Assembly: GCF_900156505.1 (NCBI RefSeq)
Contig: NZ_FTPR01000001.1
Coordinates: 1,736,001 to 1,800,000, forward strand
Length of the DNA: 64,000 nt
Source of the DNA: Yoonia rosea
GTDB lineage: Bacteria; Pseudomonadota; Alphaproteobacteria; Rhodobacterales; Rhodobacteraceae
Direction of reading: 5' to 3'
Each line of letters starts with the position of its first letter. The stretch's first letter is position 1. Under the pieces are notes generated by a model, which saw only the letters and a program-made list of their open reading frames with translations, had not been told where the DNA came from and made no database searches. Shown here piece after piece: positions 9,110-14,935 of the stretch. A program made the translations under genes and the position numbers.

Positions 9110-9630
9110 GGCATTCAGTCCCTGCAGGCTTGCACTTCAGCCAAGGATTACCACGTGCCCGCTGACAACGGCAATCATCACGATCAACGCGTATCATTTG
9201 CGATCTTGATCTCAGGAAATGATGCCCGTGGCCGGCGCCAACCCATGGCTTTTCGTTTCTTTGTGCGTCCAACCCTGCGCGCAATGCATAGGCTCTCAAC
9301 GTCATTCATGAAAACCGCCGCAGTTGGCAAACACTGCGACGGGTCCGGGCTCTGGCTGGTGAAGCGGGATGATGGCGGGGTGCAATGTGTCAGCGCTTGG
9401 AGACAGCTGATCCGCGACGCCGGTCCATATCGGGGCTGGTGTAGACGGGATCTTGGCCTGTTTGCGAAAACGTTGGGCGGATACTGCGAGGTTGCATTGT
9501 ATCTTGGCGGCTTTGAATGCGCGCCGCGTCGTCATTTGCAAGACGCCACCGTTTGCGTGAGCTCCTGTGGCCTGACCTTTTCAGACCTAAGTCGGTATTC
9601 CGTAGGGAAAATATGGATTAGCTTGACCCG
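9110..9630. other. 521-nt interval without an intact gene
   Basis: Lies between the aldehyde dehydrogenase start (leftward) and the histidine kinase start (rightward). Its middle third carries the decayed integrase-like sequence listed separately. The rest shows no coding signal that I can defend, although the promoters of both flanking genes must lie here. Confidence 0.6.
9284..9545 (+). pseudogene. Decayed N-terminal fragment of a tyrosine integrase (P4-type, DUF4102 region)
   Basis: From the ATG at 9284 the reading MHRLSTSFMKTAAVGKHCDG, continuing SGLWLVKRDDGGVQ, closely resembles the arm-binding N-terminus of alphaproteobacterial phage/island integrases (LT..FVKT...GKHCDG.GLWL.KR.DGG.QWV). 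After Q34 the family pattern continues only in another frame: from 9388 it reads QRLETADPRRRSISGLV, comparable to the usual RLTIHGRRREMGLG, and then stops at a TAG. The catalytic domain is absent. I read this as a frameshifted relic. The family match is from memory, not from a search. Confidence 0.5.
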
Positions 9631-11031
9631 ATGAAGAATCTTCGACCTCCGAGGCGCTGGCATAGCTTGACGCTGCCCGGCCAGTTTCTGTTAGCTGGTG
9701 CGGCTGTGATGGTTGTGGCAACGATTGCCGTGGAATTCTGGGTGTCGAAACGTATCGAAGATGCGGTTGTCAATAATTCGGCGTTCTCTGCGGCGCTGCT
9801 GATGGAAAACTTCATCTCGCCGCTCAGTCAGGAATTGGCTGACACCGATACCCTGTCGCAGCCCGCGCGGCAGGCCTTGGCCGAAGTGTTTAACGGGACG
9901 CCCATCGGTGAACGCGTTGTGTCCTACAAAATCTGGTCAACGGACGGGCTGGTGATCCACGCATCTGACCCGTCAATCATCGGGCAGGAATTCGAACCTT
10001 CCGAGGATTTCCTGCGCGCCGCATCGGGCTATGTCTCGGCCTCATTCGAGGATTTCGATGACATCGAGGATGCGACCGAGGCTGCTCTTGGTGTTCCCTT
10101 GTTGGAGGTCTACAGCCCGATCCGCCAGCTATGGAGCGGTGAAATAATCGGTGTCGCCGAATTCTACGAGGATGCCACAATCCTGCGGGAAGACATCCTG
10201 AGCGCACATCGCACCAGTTGGCTGGTTGTCGGTGGGGCCTTTCTGGCCAGCGGTGTGTTGTTGTTTGGCATTGTTCAGGCCGGGGGTCGCACCATTCGCC
10301 AACAGCAATCAGAACTGCGCCGGCAATTGGACAAGACACAGACAGTATCGACCCAAAACGCGGACCTGCGCCGGAAAGTGATCAAGGCGTCTACCAATGC
10401 CACGGCGCAGACAGAACGGGCGATCCGGCGCATCGGATCCGACCTGCATGACGGGCCGGCGCAGTATCTGTCCTTGGCGTCCTTACGCCTTGATAACGCG
10501 TTGAATGGCCAGCAGGGACCATCTGGCGATTCCGCACTGGTGCGCGAATCTCTGGACAAGGCCCTAGATGAATTGCGGATCATCTCGCGCGGGTTGGCGC
10601 TGCCCGACCTTGATAACCTTGATGTGCAGGCGCTGATCAATCGCGCGGTGAACGACCACATGCGCCAGACCGACCTGGAGATTGAGGTGCAGGCGCAGGG
10701 GGTGAGTGAGATTACGCTCAACTATGCCCAAAAGCTTTGTGTTTTCCGCTTCTTGCAAGAGACGCTGTCGAATGTACGCCGTCATGCAAAGGTTGATGAG
10801 GCGACCGTTTCCGTGCGCACGGACCCACAGTTCTTTTATGTCTCTGTGGTCGATCTCGGCACAGGATTTGAAACCACTGCGCCCCGCAATGTCCGCGATG
10901 ATGGCGGACAGGGCCTTTTTGGCCTCATAAACCGCGCAGAGAGCATTGGCGGGCAGTTGGACATAACATCGACAACCGCACGTGGAACGACCCTTACACT
11001 TACTCTGCCAATTGAAGAGGCAAACCTATGA
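9631..11031 (+). CDS. Membrane sensor histidine kinase (NarX/DegS-type, HisKA_3)
   Basis: Sensor kinase of 466 residues. Membrane segments at about 18-37 and 197-216 enclose a 160-residue periplasmic sensor region rich in acidic residues (FEDFDDIEDATE near 140). After the second helix comes a coiled coil (220-265), then the HisKA_3 phosphoacceptor box RRIGSDLHDGPAQ with His273, and a C-terminal HATPase_c domain with GGQGLFGLINRAE and GTTLTLTLP. The stop overlaps the ATG of the response regulator by 4 nt, so they form one two-component system. The signal is unknown. No convincing ribosome-binding site precedes the 9631 ATG. Confidence 0.9.
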   Translation: MKNLRPPRRWHSLTLPGQFLLAGAAVMVVATIAVEFWVSKRIEDAVVNNSAFSAALLMENFISPLSQELADTDTLSQPARQALAEVFNGTPIGERVVSYKIWSTDGLVIHASDPSIIGQEFEPSEDFLRAASGYVSASFEDFDDIEDATEAALGVPLLEVYSPIRQLWSGEIIGVAEFYEDATILREDILSAHRTSWLVVGGAFLASGVLLFGIVQAGGRTIRQQQSELRRQLDKTQTVSTQNADLRRKVIKASTNATAQTERAIRRIGSDLHDGPAQYLSLASLRLDNALNGQQGPSGDSALVRESLDKALDELRIISRGLALPDLDNLDVQALINRAVNDHMRQTDLEIEVQAQGVSEITLNYAQKLCVFRFLQETLSNVRRHAKVDEATVSVRTDPQFFYVSVVDLGTGFETTAPRNVRDDGGQGLFGLINRAESIGGQLDITSTTARGTTLTLTLPIEEANL

Positions 11032-11672
11032 CTATTCGTATTATTCTTGCCGATGATCATCCCATTTTTCGCGATGGGCTTGTCCATAGTATCGAAGAAA
11101 CCGGAGAGTTCGAGGTCGTTGGTGTGGGTGGGTCCGCCGATGAGGCAGTCGCGCTCGCGTTTCAGCACAAGCCCGATATTGCCTTGCTGGATTTATCGAT
11201 GCCCGGCAACGGGATAAATGCCGCCAAGCAGATCCGCGATGGGGACACAGCCGGCGCAATCGCCATGCTGACCGTGTCCGAGGATAGCGAGGATGTGACA
11301 GCGGCAATCGGTGCAGGGGCATCGGGATATCTGCTCAAGGGGGTTTCTGCCCATGAATTGCGGGAAGTCCTGACCAAGCTGGCCGCAGGTGAGGCCCATG
11401 TCTCCCCGGGTTTGGCGGCACAAATGCTGCGGGTCATGCAAACCCGCAAGACGGAAGAGCCCCAACCAATTGACGATCTGACGAAGCGCGAAGAGGATAT
11501 TCTGAAGGGTGTCGCTGCGGGCAAAAGCAACAAGGAAATCGGCCTGGACCTGAAAATTCAGGAAAAGACCGTGAAACACTATATGACAATTATTCTGAGC
11601 AAATTGCAGGCGCGCAACCGTGTCGAGGCCGCGTTGATTGCCCAGAAGGCATGGGGCCGCAAACACAGCTAA
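11028..11672 (+). CDS. NarL/FixJ-family response regulator
   Basis: DNA-binding response regulator, 214 residues. Receiver domain (1-120) with the acidic pair DD at 9-10, phosphoacceptor Asp55 in IALLDLSMPG and the conserved Lys in SGYLLKGVS. The C-terminal LuxR-type helix-turn-helix starts with LTKREEDILKGVAAGKSNKE and includes the recognition segment KTVKHYMTIILSKL. Coupled to the sensor kinase upstream (ATGA overlap). Its 3' end overlaps the convergent poly-aspartate gene by 4 nt. Targets are unknown; the exported-protein/polyphosphate locus next door is the obvious candidate. Confidence 0.92.
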   Translation: MTIRIILADDHPIFRDGLVHSIEETGEFEVVGVGGSADEAVALAFQHKPDIALLDLSMPGNGINAAKQIRDGDTAGAIAMLTVSEDSEDVTAAIGAGASGYLLKGVSAHELREVLTKLAAGEAHVSPGLAAQMLRVMQTRKTEEPQPIDDLTKREEDILKGVAAGKSNKEIGLDLKIQEKTVKHYMTIILSKLQARNRVEAALIAQKAWGRKHS

Positions 11673-12223
11673 AGGCCAGCGGCCTCGCGCATGCGGTCAA
11701 GATCAGCAAAGGTGGCGGCCCGGTCGGTGACGGTCCGTCCTGCGGGGTCGATCAGGATATAGCGGCCGTCGCGGATTTTCTCGTCCCAGCCGTTCGGGTA
11801 CCGCAAATAGAGATTTTCGGGACGATTGCGGCTTTGGTCTGAAGGGCGCTCAGTTGTAGCGCTGGGCGTGTTTGCGTCGGGATTGTCGTCGTCGCGGCCA
11901 TCCGCGTCGTTGCTATCGTCATAATCATCGTCTTCGTCGCCGTCATCATCATCATCGTCATCGTCATCGTCGTCGTCATCGTCGTCATCGTCATCACCGT
12001 CATCGTCGTCGTCATCATCATCATCGTCGTCGTCATCATCATCGTCGTCGTCATCATCATCGTCGTCGTCATCATCGTCATCATCATCATCATCGTCGTC
12101 GTCGCTGTCCGCACGCGCAGTGCCAACGCCAAAAAACCAGTTTCCGTCCTGATCGTATGATCCGGTGATGGGAAACGGGATCAAAAGAAATGCTGCTAGC
12201 AGCAGCTTGATCAGTTTGCTCAT
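11669..12223 (-). CDS. Exported or membrane-anchored poly-aspartate protein
   Basis: 184 residues from MSKLIKLLLAAFLLIPFPIT, a hydrophobic signal or anchor segment. The start at 12223 is preferred because the 44-codon upstream extension lacks this pattern. Residues 41-94 are 53 Asp and a single Gly, encoded by a mix of GAT and GAC triplets. A looser acidic stretch (GDEDDDYDDSNDADGRDDD) follows. The last 50 residues look like a small folded domain (LYLRYPNGWDEKIRDGRYIL, then DPAGRTVTDRAATFADLDRM). No function is known to me. Such a tract should bind Ca2+ or other cations strongly. It lies upstream-convergent to the response regulator and next to the exported protein and polyphosphate polymerase. 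Confidence 0.8.
   Translation of the reverse strand: MSKLIKLLLAAFLLIPFPITGSYDQDGNWFFGVGTARADSDDDDDDDDDDDDDDDDDDDDDDDDDDDDDDDDDDDGDDDDDDDDDDDDDDDDDDGDEDDDYDDSNDADGRDDDNPDANTPSATTERPSDQSRNRPENLYLRYPNGWDEKIRDGRYILIDPAGRTVTDRAATFADLDRMREAAGL
11942..12103. repeat. Imperfect GAY trinucleotide repeat (54 codons)
   Basis: 162 nt made of GAC and GAT triplets on the minus strand with one GGT interruption. The two synonymous codons are mixed rather than uniform, so the tract is not a fresh slippage microsatellite and the Asp sequence appears to be maintained. Length variation between strains would still be expected. Confidence 0.95.
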
Positions 12224-12383
12224 GTCAAACGTCCAGCCAGTGTGTTCATCTTTCGACGGAAAGTATCGCAAGCTTAGCACCATTTCACATGGCGGGCATT
12301 GGACGAAGGTCTGACGTGAAACACCCACTGCACTAATTTTGCGCAGCGGGGTCATTTTAGTCTCAGATCTCGGGGGTGTCGGG

Positions 12384-12929
12384 CTAGCGTGATGTTGTCA
12401 GGAAACCCGCGGGGACCTCTCGGAAGTTGGTTCCAGAGAAGTCGATTGAGCGGTACACACCATCCGTGATGTAAACAAGATTGATCGCCTGTGCGCCGCT
12501 GTTTTTCTGCCGGACCAGAACAAACCCATGCGTCGCCTGCGAGGCTGCTTGCAAGAAGCTGCGCGGGTCAAACCCTGCCGGATTTGTACTGACCGGGACA
12601 GGCAACCGCCCTAGTCGGTTCAGCCAATATGTCGCCACATCCAGATGGCGCGTTGTCAGTGGCTGCATAGAATCATAGGACCGTGACCGCTGCTCTGCGT
12701 TTATCACGAAGGTTGCATTGCCATTGGATGTGTTCACGCGGCAACCCGAAATCTCGTCCGTGCGAAATCCGTTGCGCCCGTCGTTGGACGCAATGACACA
12801 ATTTGTCGTTTCGGCCTGCGCCGCAGATCCGGCAGTGGTGAGGACCACCAACAGAGCCATCAGGATTGGCCCGCATTTGCGAAATGCAGGTGCAAACAAA
12901 CGGGTTAGGTTTTGATAAAAATGGGTCAT
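12384..12929 (-). CDS. Exported protein of unknown function
   Basis: 181 residues from MTHFYQNLTRLF, preceded by an AGGAAAGAGAAA ribosome-binding site. A long signal peptide with hydrophobic core PILMALLVVLTTAGSAAQA is followed by a predicted cleavage before ETTNC. The mature part has two early cysteines (CVIASNDGRNGF and ISGCRVNTSNG), which may form a disulfide, and ends with LVYITDGVYRSIDFSGTNF. I do not recognise the family. It is co-oriented with, and 34 nt downstream of, the VTC-domain gene, so it is probably the third gene of that operon. Confidence 0.75.
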   Translation of the reverse strand: MTHFYQNLTRLFAPAFRKCGPILMALLVVLTTAGSAAQAETTNCVIASNDGRNGFRTDEISGCRVNTSNGNATFVINAEQRSRSYDSMQPLTTRHLDVATYWLNRLGRLPVPVSTNPAGFDPRSFLQAASQATHGFVLVRQKNSGAQAINLVYITDGVYRSIDFSGTNFREVPAGFLTTSR

Positions 12930-12963
12930 TTTCTCTTTCCTTTCAGTAGGAAAATGGTCGGAT

Positions 12964-13821
12964 TCATGCGGCAATGGTATGGGGGCCGAAAGATCGACCG
13001 CGCACGTCGGTGCAAAGCTGCGCCCAATTGCCAATTTGCGGCGTCGGTACGGTCAGCCCCAGTTTGCGCAAGGTGGGCAAGAACCGGTTGTAGCGCGTCA
13101 CCTGACCGGTCGCGGCCATCCCGATGCAATACTTCGAACACCGCTTCGTGGGGCGTTCCCCCTTGGTGCGCAGCAGGCGGTCGGCCAACCCGCGGCCATT
13201 CGCGGATTTGGTCTCGACGATGAACACGCCGGTGCCTGACCCGAAGGTCCGGTTCTGCGATTGAAAACACAGGTCGGTATCGATCGTCATCCGCTCCCCC
13301 CCGGCACGCGCCACGAGGGTCATGCGTTGATAGCGCACATCGAGTGCGGGGCGCAGGGCGTAGTCAAACGCCTTGTCATACTGGCGGCCATAGGTGTCCT
13401 GCGCAAAGGCGGCGGCATCCGGCGTGAGCTGTGCCAATTGCGCCAGATCATAGGGCATTCGGTACTTTTCCGTCATGCCGCGTTGGCCTTTGACCTTCAC
13501 CTCCAGAAAGCACAAGCCCGCATCCACATAGTTGCGCACACGCACTTTGAACCCACGGCGCTTGCCTTGATGATGCTCATAATAGGCACTGCGTTCGGCA
13601 TCATCAAAATATCGCGTATCATAGGTAAATGCGCGTTGTTGCTTGATTTCGAGGATATCAAACGCCTCGCTGAGATCAGGAACAAGCGACAACAGATCAT
13701 CGCTTTGCACGACGTATTTGTTGTCGATGCGCGCCATCATCTCGGCCTTTGCGTTCAGGTCTTCGAGTGAGACGGGAGAGAAGGAAGCAGTGAATTGGTC
13801 AATATTGGACAGGTCGTTCAT
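12964..13821 (-). CDS. VTC-domain polyphosphate polymerase family protein
   Basis: 285 residues with the VTC fold (triphosphate tunnel metalloenzyme type). Basic and acidic tunnel residues are visible in EMMARIDNKYVVQ (about 28-40), DTRYFDD, GFKVRVRNYVDAGLCFLEVKVKG (start about 95) and the late VETKSANGRG motif. The yeast homologue Vtc4 makes polyphosphate from ATP, and bacterial members are often paired with DUF4956 membrane proteins. That pairing is present here: the ATG overlaps the stop of the DUF4956 gene by 4 nt. No membrane segment is seen, so it is probably a cytoplasmic partner of that protein. Catalytic activity is inferred. Confidence 0.85.
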   Translation of the reverse strand: MNDLSNIDQFTASFSPVSLEDLNAKAEMMARIDNKYVVQSDDLLSLVPDLSEAFDILEIKQQRAFTYDTRYFDDAERSAYYEHHQGKRRGFKVRVRNYVDAGLCFLEVKVKGQRGMTEKYRMPYDLAQLAQLTPDAAAFAQDTYGRQYDKAFDYALRPALDVRYQRMTLVARAGGERMTIDTDLCFQSQNRTFGSGTGVFIVETKSANGRGLADRLLRTKGERPTKRCSKYCIGMAATGQVTRYNRFLPTLRKLGLTVPTPQIGNWAQLCTDVRGRSFGPHTIAA

Positions 13822-14405
13822 TTGGTCGTTCCTTCGGTACGGTAAAAGACATTGAGACGGGCGAGGTCATTGACGTAGTTCAGTTCGATGACCTGAAAGT
13901 TCATCACTTCAACGCCAAGGCGCTTGGACAGATCAGCGCGCATCTGGACTGGATCGGCCAGCATATGGGCCTCAATCCGATCCAGGGTGAGCTTGGCGCT
14001 GTCGGCGGATTCCAGAATGTTCGGATGGTCCAAAAGCCACGCGGCAACCAGCACAAAAGCCACGATCATCGCAACAAGACCCAGTCCCGTTCCAAGCACC
14101 GAACAGATCACGGCAATCGCGATGGAGCCAAAGAAATAGCTAATCTCGATCTTGGATATTGTCTCTGAGCGCAGGCTAAACAACGCGAGAATGGCAAACA
14201 GACCAAAGCCTGCCGCGATGCTGAACTCGACACTGGACAGGATCGTCAGGACCGAGAACGCGAAGATGTTGAACATCGCCGCCGTTGTCGCCAGTTCTTT
14301 GTCGCGGTAACGGCGATAAAACATCCCGAACATAAGACAGAGCATAGCTGTCGCGTTGATTGCAAACCTGATGGCAAGCTCGATTAACGGGTCAGTGGGG
14401 GTCAT
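13818..14405 (-). CDS. DUF4956 membrane protein
   Basis: 195 residues from MTPTDPLIELAIRFAINATA. The start at 14405 follows AAGGACTGCTAC, a good ribosome-binding site. Four to five membrane helices occupy residues 12-130, with the family motif region GLFAILALFSLRSETISKIEISYFFG split around residue 85. A C-terminal cytoplasmic domain of about 65 residues begins with VEVMNFQVIELNYVNDLARL. Members of this family are regularly found beside VTC-domain polyphosphate polymerases and are thought to form the membrane half of the complex. First gene of a likely operon DUF4956-VTC-exported protein. Confidence 0.85.
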   Translation of the reverse strand: MTPTDPLIELAIRFAINATAMLCLMFGMFYRRYRDKELATTAAMFNIFAFSVLTILSSVEFSIAAGFGLFAILALFSLRSETISKIEISYFFGSIAIAVICSVLGTGLGLVAMIVAFVLVAAWLLDHPNILESADSAKLTLDRIEAHMLADPVQMRADLSKRLGVEVMNFQVIELNYVNDLARLNVFYRTEGTTK

Positions 14406-14935
14406 GTAGCAGTCCTTTGCGCTCAACAGCCCGTCTTGGGCCGCGTCATATTCCTGTTACAAAACTGTCATGTCCAAGGGAGGCAGGGCACTGTCAGACG
14501 TCCGGTCGAAATTCAGACCTTAGGCCGAATACGCTTCCGACCGTTTGACGATGAGCCGCGGTACAAAGTGGCCATACCGACACGCCAATAGCGCTTTTGC
14601 GCGAAACAGATCATGCCCTTGGTTGCATGAAAGGCAGCTTGGTCCACCTCGGTTGCATCCATGCGGCGCGCTGCGAAAGATCAGTGCGAGATCCTGCGCA
14701 GTTGACCAGTTTGCACGACCAGAGCCGCGCCGCGACTTTCGCGAAGCGGTCTTTTGGGGCGGCTCACAACAGCTTCCGCAACGCTGACATCCGTGGCGCT
14801 GCAGACGCCGTGCATTTTGCGGCGATCTCAAGGGACGCTTATCCGAAACGGTGAAAGAGCGGCCAAGATTACTTGGCCGCTCTCGTTTGATTGACTTCTC
14901 GAATGGCAGGCGCCGCGAAACGGATCAGGTGCGGG
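14406..14935. other. 530-nt interval without a convincing gene; possible dispersed-repeat remnant
   Basis: The left part must hold the DUF4956 promoter. From about 14640 to 14850 the plus strand can be read as a short protein (HDQSRAATFAKRSFGAAHNS, then RNADIRGAADAVHFA) that has the look of intergenic repeat sequence I associate with marine Rhodobacteraceae. There is no good ribosome-binding site and no family match. The right end carries a terminator-like hairpin belonging to the MBL gene. Confidence 0.4.
14856..14883 (-). terminator. Intrinsic terminator-like hairpin downstream of the MBL-fold gene
   Basis: Perfect 12-bp stem (AGAGCGGCCAAG and complement) with a 4-nt loop, about 50 nt past the stop of the leftward MBL gene. 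The following T-run on the minus strand is short (CTCTTTC), so termination may be incomplete. Confidence 0.6.

Follow-up and report, generated by a model that had tools for sequence, protein, structure and literature searches.

A two-component system, a DUF4956-VTC pair and acidic exported proteins in Yoonia rosea: conserved linkage and a common palindrome suggest one regulon

Introduction

What does a predicted polyphosphate polymerase do beside a two-component system and an exported protein with an almost pure aspartate tract? The question is raised by a locus of Yoonia rosea (Alphaproteobacteria, Rhodobacteraceae), which we analysed computationally within the window, a stretch of 64 kb of contig NZ_FTPR01000001.1 (positions 1,736,001 to 1,800,000, forward strand), following up an earlier note made from the sequence alone. 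Here, genes for a sensor histidine kinase (HK) and a NarL-type response regulator (RR) face those for an exported poly-Asp protein, a second exported protein, a VTC-domain polymerase and a DUF4956 membrane protein. DUF4956-VTC pairs occur across Proteobacteria in our contig scan, and no role is assigned to them in the literature searched, which took in few subscription journals and yielded nothing on a VTC domain with DUF4956, on a poly-aspartate periplasmic two-component locus or on Roseobacter polyphosphate VTC. New here are a small domain, which we name NGW, a palindrome common to three promoters of the locus, and Asp tracts that recur on three unrelated proteins beside DUF4956-VTC. The reading that we propose, for which the case as a whole is about evenly balanced, is that of a two-component regulon with kinase-controlled polyphosphate synthesis, possible export of the polymer and a cation-binding partner in the envelope.

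Results

The six genes described in the earlier note are all present, and ORF and Pfam calls bear out both this set and the end of the RR gene 4 nt inside the poly-Asp gene. The features of the locus, in window coordinates, are as follows.

9581..9596, plus strand: palindrome TCAGACCTAAGTCGGT, matching TCAGACNNNNGTCTGA at 10/12 positions, 50 bp upstream of the HK start; a distance of about -50 recurs in relatives
9631..11031, plus strand: sensor histidine kinase, HisKA_3-like/HATPase_c (Pfam), with a Cache-like outer domain by model
11028..11672, plus strand: NarL/LuxR-type response regulator (Pfam)
11669..12223, minus strand: exported poly-Asp protein of 184 aa, with a signal segment (by eye), Asp tract and C-terminal NGW domain
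11672..11818, minus strand: NGW domain, the conserved C-terminal 49 residues, predicted bbbb-alpha
11942..12103, minus strand: Asp tract, residues 41-94 (53 Asp, 1 Gly)
12299..12314, minus strand: palindrome TCAGACCTTCGTCCAA (minus-strand letters), 10/12, upstream of the poly-Asp gene
12384..12929, minus strand: second exported protein; its mature part holds two cysteines (by eye)
12964..13821, minus strand: predicted VTC-domain polyphosphate polymerase (PF09359)
13818..14405, minus strand: DUF4956 membrane protein (PF16316)
14494-14509: second palindrome copy by the DUF4956-VTC operon, 9/12
14513..14528, minus strand: palindrome TCGGCCTAAGGTCTGA (minus-strand letters), 10/12, upstream of the DUF4956-VTC operon

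Overlaps of 4 nt join HK to RR and DUF4956 to VTC, and the convergent RR and poly-Asp genes overlap by the same length. In Pfam, VTC scores 111 bits (cut-off 23) and DUF4956 151.9 bits (cut-off 30.6); the RR is a receiver-GerE regulator (Response_reg 73.6 bits, GerE 66.7 bits), and the HK passes for HATPase_c (30.0 bits vs 26.4) and falls just under the cut-off for HisKA_3 (23.9 vs 24.0).

To what extent the neighbourhood is conserved was assessed in 149 genomes of the family and 56 of the genus, the Y. rosea genome (G000) being counted in both; hereafter, G numbers denote genomes and L numbers DNA loci. DUF4956 is present in 5/149 family-sample genomes and in 12/56 genus genomes, a count that includes G175, with a 27-residue fragment only, the locus of which (L041) was left out. 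A search of the DNA around these matches, for which the six window proteins served as queries, found HK, RR and an exported poly-Asp relative at all five loci with 70-91% DUF4956 identity (L013, L014, L015, L030, L031), and HK, RR and NGW stood by DUF4956-VTC at 0/10 loci with 63-68% identity, 3 of which lie on contigs shorter than 11 kb. A wider contig scan gave 134 DUF4956 relatives, the best 80 of which, many on short contigs, are the named loci; the table of their neighbours rests on seed proteins and E-value limits, and unseeded neighbours are missed. VTC occurs at 78 of these loci, HK at 16 and the poly-Asp (NGW) family at 13, every one of the NGW loci having HK (13/13) vs 3/67 loci lacking NGW, and these three (L095, L101, L115) sit on contigs that end close by. 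The neighbourhood, conservation of which had been set beforehand in the earlier note as a test of its proposal, is thus kept in close relatives and at all 13 NGW loci among the 80. The second exported protein is rarer, with relatives at 4/80 named loci, all 4 with a window-type HK.

The linkage is kept through three gene orders: VTC-NGW facing RR-HK; VTC, HK and RR followed by a reversed NGW gene (L094, L103, L106); and, at L095 and L101, HK-RR-DUF4956-VTC with all genes on the same strand. The HK label, with 17 rows, takes 2 changes on the DUF4956 tree. The smallest larger starred set including the window adds three rows to these 17, which in a drawn tree are L118; L091, a 5.4-kb contig that groups with the HK rows; and L107, from Marimonas arenosa, which carries HK-RR and an NGW protein (by eye) elsewhere in the genome, apart from DUF4956-VTC. 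So few origins could reflect inheritance of chance neighbours, carried together with no common function, a possibility that we consider very improbable: the linkage outlives the three gene orders, and the palindrome described below is kept while its flanks diverge. Two kinase-linked DUF4956-VTC loci fall in bins labelled as other orders, namely, metagenome-assembled genomes (MAGs) of Gammaproteobacteria (L101) and Hyphomicrobiales (L113), through transfer or misbinning.

With which of its neighbours does the poly-Asp protein belong? In the family sample, NGW is found in 13/149 genomes and HK (E<=1e-80) in 15/149, with both in 10 (Fisher p 7e-10, over 149 genomes and not tree-corrected), and the two lie at one locus in 8 of these 10. 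The NGW family belongs first to the kinase and regulator, because it stands beside HK without DUF4956 in 4 family genomes (G024, G043, G137, G141) and lies apart from DUF4956-VTC in Marimonas arenosa; the notion that poly-Asp belongs to VTC was dropped after the family-wide HK and domain searches.

A common control element connects the three units. A count of spaced word pairs over 56 upstream regions, taken from 21 loci (the window and its relatives), brought out one palindrome, with the consensus TCAGAC-N4-GTCTGA, in up to 8 loci, vs a maximum of 3 across four shuffles; HK, the poly-Asp gene and the DUF4956-VTC operon each have it upstream. Scored on the promoters from which it came, it matches at >=10/12 positions in 35/56 regions vs 1.05% of 2000 background windows (DUF4956 16/18, NGW 11/18, HK 8/19 and the window's second exported gene 0/1) and at >=9/12 in 44/56 vs 6.05% (16, 14, 14 and 0, respectively). 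Eight HK loci outside the discovery set are independent of that choice, and 5 of them have a site at >=9/12 (P 2e-4, the expectation being 8.9%), which lies at -47 to -52 in three of these and at -114 and -145 in the other two. Most sites keep a fixed distance from the start codon, about -50 for HK, -88 to -106 for NGW and -105 to -135 for DUF4956. Among sites picked at >=8/12 within distance bands (DUF4956 16/18, NGW 10/18, HK 13/19), motif columns hold 1.42-1.52 bits vs 0.23-0.52 in the flanks, the picking itself raising the motif value.

The palindrome, furthermore, follows the kinase: DUF4956 promoters carry a site of >=10/12 at 13/15 HK loci vs 2/65 others, and the latter two are L095, with a cut HK, and L091. 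The window holds 7 matches with at most 2 mismatches vs 1.75 expected, three of them being the promoter sites; given about 35 background sites per Mb at >=10/12, targets called in a single genome are unreliable. In Marimonas arenosa, with DUF4956 and HK at separate places, the NGW promoter has a 10/12 site. The DUF4956 promoter there has a 9/12 site, which speaks further against chance neighbours, yet 8.9% of equal-length background windows reach 9/12. Since one palindrome is common to the three promoters, HK, the poly-Asp gene and the DUF4956-VTC operon likely form one regulon. The earlier note had named RR binding confined to other parts of the genome as a result that would refute it; the sites ahead of the kinase, the VTC operon and the poly-Asp gene point to local control. 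The RR of the locus is the predicted binder, since it co-occurs with the palindrome and its own operon has a site upstream.

What, then, is conserved in the poly-Asp protein? A recount agrees with the 53 Asp and one Gly reported earlier for residues 41-94; the tract contains Asp runs of 35 and 18, and the whole protein 75 Asp among 184 residues. Codons at residues 41-99 include 28 GAC and 28 GAT, a mixture that a pure triplet repeat in the DNA would not give. The pure tract, singled out in the earlier note as unusual, turns out to be a detail of one lineage. Aligned relatives have in common the signal segment and a C-terminal domain with the consensus [VL]xYxNGWxExIxxGRYxLxDPxGRxVxxRxAT..D..RL, and the linker between the two differs by lineage (Asp runs, DDR, GDGEGG, SGSGSSN). 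Judged from this alignment, the conserved part of the protein is the NGW domain of about 48 residues, doubled in several relatives, and the tract is a variable linker. A search for homologous proteins with the C-terminus returned 4 close relatives only. The signal segment (12104-12223 in the window, and relatives) looks unusual in that about 17 residues (consensus DGxWxFGVxYAxA) separate the hydrophobic core from the AxA site.

The NGW domain, one of two models compared with the PDB by Foldseek (the other being the outer domain of the kinase), is predicted confidently as four strands and a helix (bbbb-alpha; predicted local distance difference test, pLDDT, 93) and has no significant PDB match. 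Pfam, NCBIfam and PDB profile searches assigned the window domain to no family, and no Pfam family was found among 14 aligned copies. Resemblances to two known domains are too weak for an assignment. For the TCP10/CPAP G-box, the best Foldseek hit has an E-value of 0.07 and a template modelling (TM) score of 0.61, the profile match to CPAP stands at E 0.004 below a top row (0.002) that is another protein over 16 residues, and Pfam Tcp10_C reaches 0.016 in 1/14 members and is below cut-off in L065. The Rib domain of Gram-positive bacteria (PF08428) matches none of the 14 aligned domains; multi-copy L065 scores 41.2 vs 27 as a whole protein, with no single stretch passing, and L083 is below cut-off.

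Asp tracts are a recurrent feature of DUF4956-VTC loci. Defining a D-rich ORF by >=12 Asp in 25 residues, we counted 24 in 23 of the 80 loci (1.219 Mb) vs 0 in forty background stretches (800 kb) from ten VTC-bearing family genomes (p 5.5e-6, neither tree- nor taxon-corrected), this background being of Rhodobacteraceae type only and the 80 loci including other groups. The window has no other D-rich ORF within its 64 kb, and 16 changes of the D-rich label are required on the DUF4956 tree, at least 7 of them forced. HK/NGW loci account for nine of the 24, namely, 8 NGW proteins and, in L087, one protein rich in Asp and Arg. The others divide into eight EF-hand proteins, exported and ending in an Asp tail, and seven subtilases, so that three unrelated kinds of protein bear Asp tracts next to DUF4956-VTC. 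Pfam confirmed EF-hand in 2/2 scanned of the 8 with an Asp tail, a ninth EF-hand protein (L105) being scanned too, and Peptidase_S8 in 5/5 scanned of the 7 subtilases. The tract directly follows the signal segment in four subtilases (L123, L150, L151, L165); the other three are L126, truncated where its contig stops and with the tract inside the protein, L145 and L162. At a lower threshold, 7/11 seeded subtilases have >=10 Asp in 25. The EF-hand proteins with Asp-rich tails stand near a second DUF4956-VTC group (L122 8190-8591, L138 8250-8690, L148, L157, L108 and others), with an OmpR-type kinase or regulator in the flanks of 7/9 loci, and subtilases with a post-signal Asp tract (L009, L016, L123, L150, L151, L165) also lie near DUF4956-VTC, often together with an extracytoplasmic function (ECF) sigma/anti-sigma pair.

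Does the tract hold cations, or is it a spacer? NGW is fused to RTX Ca2+-binding repeats in 3/13 NGW genomes (G137, G008 and the second locus of G070), with Pfam HemolysinCabind in 4/4 proteins scanned (87.6-136.5 bits vs 23), and the window protein itself has no EF-hand or RTX Pfam match, both being confined to relatives and analogues. By analogy with these, the Asp tract may bind cations, which we rate slightly short of an even chance. The earlier proposal of an envelope cation or polyanion system is thereby supported indirectly, through the EF-hand and RTX versions of the partner, and Ca2+/Mg2+ would be the presumptive ligands. A flexible, soluble spacer is a less probable though tenable alternative, in which the function resides in NGW, perhaps as an accessory reporting to the kinase, and Asp, Gly, Ser and Asn runs are interchangeable disordered stretches. 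The free variation of linker composition and length within one family fits a spacer, as do the 7/15 NGW proteins that are not D-rich. By contrast, all nine EF-hand partners, which the EF-hand motif alone identified irrespective of Asp content, reach >=11 Asp in 25, and RTX fusions and D-rich tracts on three unrelated folds likewise disfavour a mere spacer. If the spacer explanation is true, the metal idea is wrong and the regulon is still right. That the partner handles transition metals is improbable: some exported proteins at these loci are rich in His, Gly and Asp (L015 7191-7883; L111), but relatives or analogues with EF-hands or RTX repeats suggest Ca2+, and the window protein has no His. 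Tandem NGW domains with RTX repeats (HemolysinCabind) are also seen in L065, L083, L080 and L053, from genomes of the same family. Exported proteins with the motif GSGCDDPhDLiEHPEC form another family (L015 7191-7883, L030 12354-12698, L111 11183-11755, L132 4217-4699), and the motif is fused to NGW in L111 and L132.

Polyphosphate is probably the product of VTC, on the basis of family knowledge. The motifs RxR, YxR, ExK and SK, putative counterparts of the active-site residues of yeast VTC4, are invariant in 10/10 rows, and sequence searches of the PDB set matched no VTC structure. As PPK1 is matched once and PPK2 twice in the Y. rosea genome, VTC is not the sole candidate route to polyphosphate, and a specialised role fits. 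Export of the polymer through DUF4956 is possible, if somewhat doubtful.

What the kinase senses bears on the remaining alternative. Its outer domain lies between two hydrophobic segments (by eye) and was modelled with a mean pLDDT of 84.7; Foldseek matches it to the sensor domains of WalK, CitA, DcuS and DctB (E 7e-7 to 1e-4), with TM scores of 0.35-0.50 by query and, for WalK, CitA and DcuS, 0.52-0.68 by domain chain. Thus, the sensor looks like a Cache/PDC-like fold in the model. The acidic loop FEDFDDIEDATE, which the earlier note had put forward as an ion sensor, does exist, in a stretch of the model with lower confidence (residues 141-150, mean 65); because the Cache fold takes many kinds of ligand, the loop does not identify an ion.

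The Cache folds of CitA, DcuS and DctB bind organic acids, as PDB titles agree for CitA and DctB. The resemblance to them would suit a phosphate-storage module, in which the status of phosphate or organic acids, read by the kinase, would switch on polyphosphate storage, with the acidic protein as a bystander or nutrient scavenger. So would the recurrence, in the seed search, of a PiT-like transporter in 12/80 and a phytase-like protein in 30/80 DUF4956 loci; of the loci scanned with Pfam, L037 has both PHO4 and Phytase-like, and L013 has PHO4. Against such a module, the palindrome-linked genes in the clade are VTC and the acidic protein, and PiT occurs in 1/13 NGW loci (L113), plus the relative L013; we regard it as unlikely. 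A phytase-like gene also accompanies the DUF4956-VTC pair of Pseudomonas aeruginosa PA7 (L152).

Discussion

The regulon that we propose would work as follows. HK would read an extracytoplasmic signal through its Cache-like domain, and the NarL-type RR would bind TCAGAC-N4-GTCTGA and control its own promoter and those of the NGW protein and DUF4956-VTC. VTC would then make polyphosphate at the inner face of the membrane, where DUF4956 may anchor it and perhaps pass the chain outward. Outside, the NGW domain might dock to the kinase, the polymer or the wall, and the acidic tract might hold divalent cations, either buffering Ca2+/Mg2+ or reporting them to the kinase.

Several results weigh against this scheme. 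The HK-NGW unit does without DUF4956 in the four family genomes named above, 5/15 HK genomes of the family sample have no detectable NGW domain, and 43/80 DUF4956 loci have no two-component gene of the seeded types in their flanks, many of these contigs being short. The motif was scored, save at the 8 further HK loci, on its own source promoters; even so, 12/56 upstream regions have no site of >=9/12, including five of HK, four of NGW and that of the window's second exported gene, and neither does the unlinked HK promoter of Marimonas arenosa. The 7/15 NGW proteins in the 80 loci with <12 Asp in 25 count here too, with linkers rich in Gly, Ser and Asn in L092 and L113 and in Gly and His in L111, as does the restricted background of the D-rich comparison. 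Finally, the acidic loop of the kinase varies among 25 relatives, being moderately conserved.

The nearest published context that we found is the CotH-polyphosphate polymerase-DUF4956 set of accessory genes in Gram-positive pel clusters; there, too, the polymerase and DUF4956 lie side by side near envelope genes, and no role is shown for them in the available part of that report (PMC7112168). These clusters have CotH kinase, DUF4832 and Pel, whereas the window has a two-component system, an Asp-tract/NGW protein and a palindrome. Two-component systems of the NarL type with Cache sensors resemble the window HK and RR in Pfam domains, predicted sensor fold and palindromic site; unlike those, the window proteins reach no NCBIfam equivalog cut-off.

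The eukaryotic VTC complex (VTC4; vacuoles, acidocalcisomes) similarly couples a VTC polymerase domain to membrane helices, and eukaryotes store polyphosphate in acidocalcisomes, where Ca2+ occurs too (PMC7332688, PMC10657179). By contrast, polymerase and membrane proteins are separate in the window, presumably at the plasma membrane rather than in an organelle, and Pfam reports only the VTC domain, and no SPX domain, on the window polymerase. It is conceivable, though unlikely, that the locus is an envelope counterpart of the acidocalcisome, with exported polyphosphate and Ca2+-holding acidic proteins under one palindrome and a two-component system reading the result; the acidic partners would then have been assembled repeatedly, from an Asp tract and an NGW, EF-hand or protease module.

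Calcium-related systems of other bacteria offer further comparisons. RTX calcium-binding nonapeptide proteins (PMC3034196) have repeats of the kind fused to NGW in three family genomes; the window protein differs in having an Asp tract and no RTX match. In the calcium system CarSR/CarP/EfhP of P. aeruginosa, the parts are a two-component system, an EF-hand exported protein and a phytase-like protein, kinds of gene product that also recur around DUF4956-VTC loci. CarP is the phytase-like member, and we know of no VTC-DUF4956 in the CarSR regulon.

The locus thus provides a handle on DUF4956-VTC, with a specific candidate regulator site, a proposed regulon of three promoters and an acidic exported partner that recurs. 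Joint export of polyphosphate and calcium by bacteria becomes testable through it, and a small unclassified domain that travels with a two-component system receives a name.

The Y. rosea genome encodes, outside the window, a second exported poly-Asp protein about 60 kb off (G000:C1:1687235-1687697; L017 9233-9697, minus strand), the only other one that a protein search of this genome returned. It has a C-terminal run of about 50 Asp and is otherwise unrelated to the window protein; its short N-terminal domain is PepSY-like by eye, with no Pfam match, and its gene adjoins one for a membrane protein with a LuxR-type helix-turn-helix (by eye).

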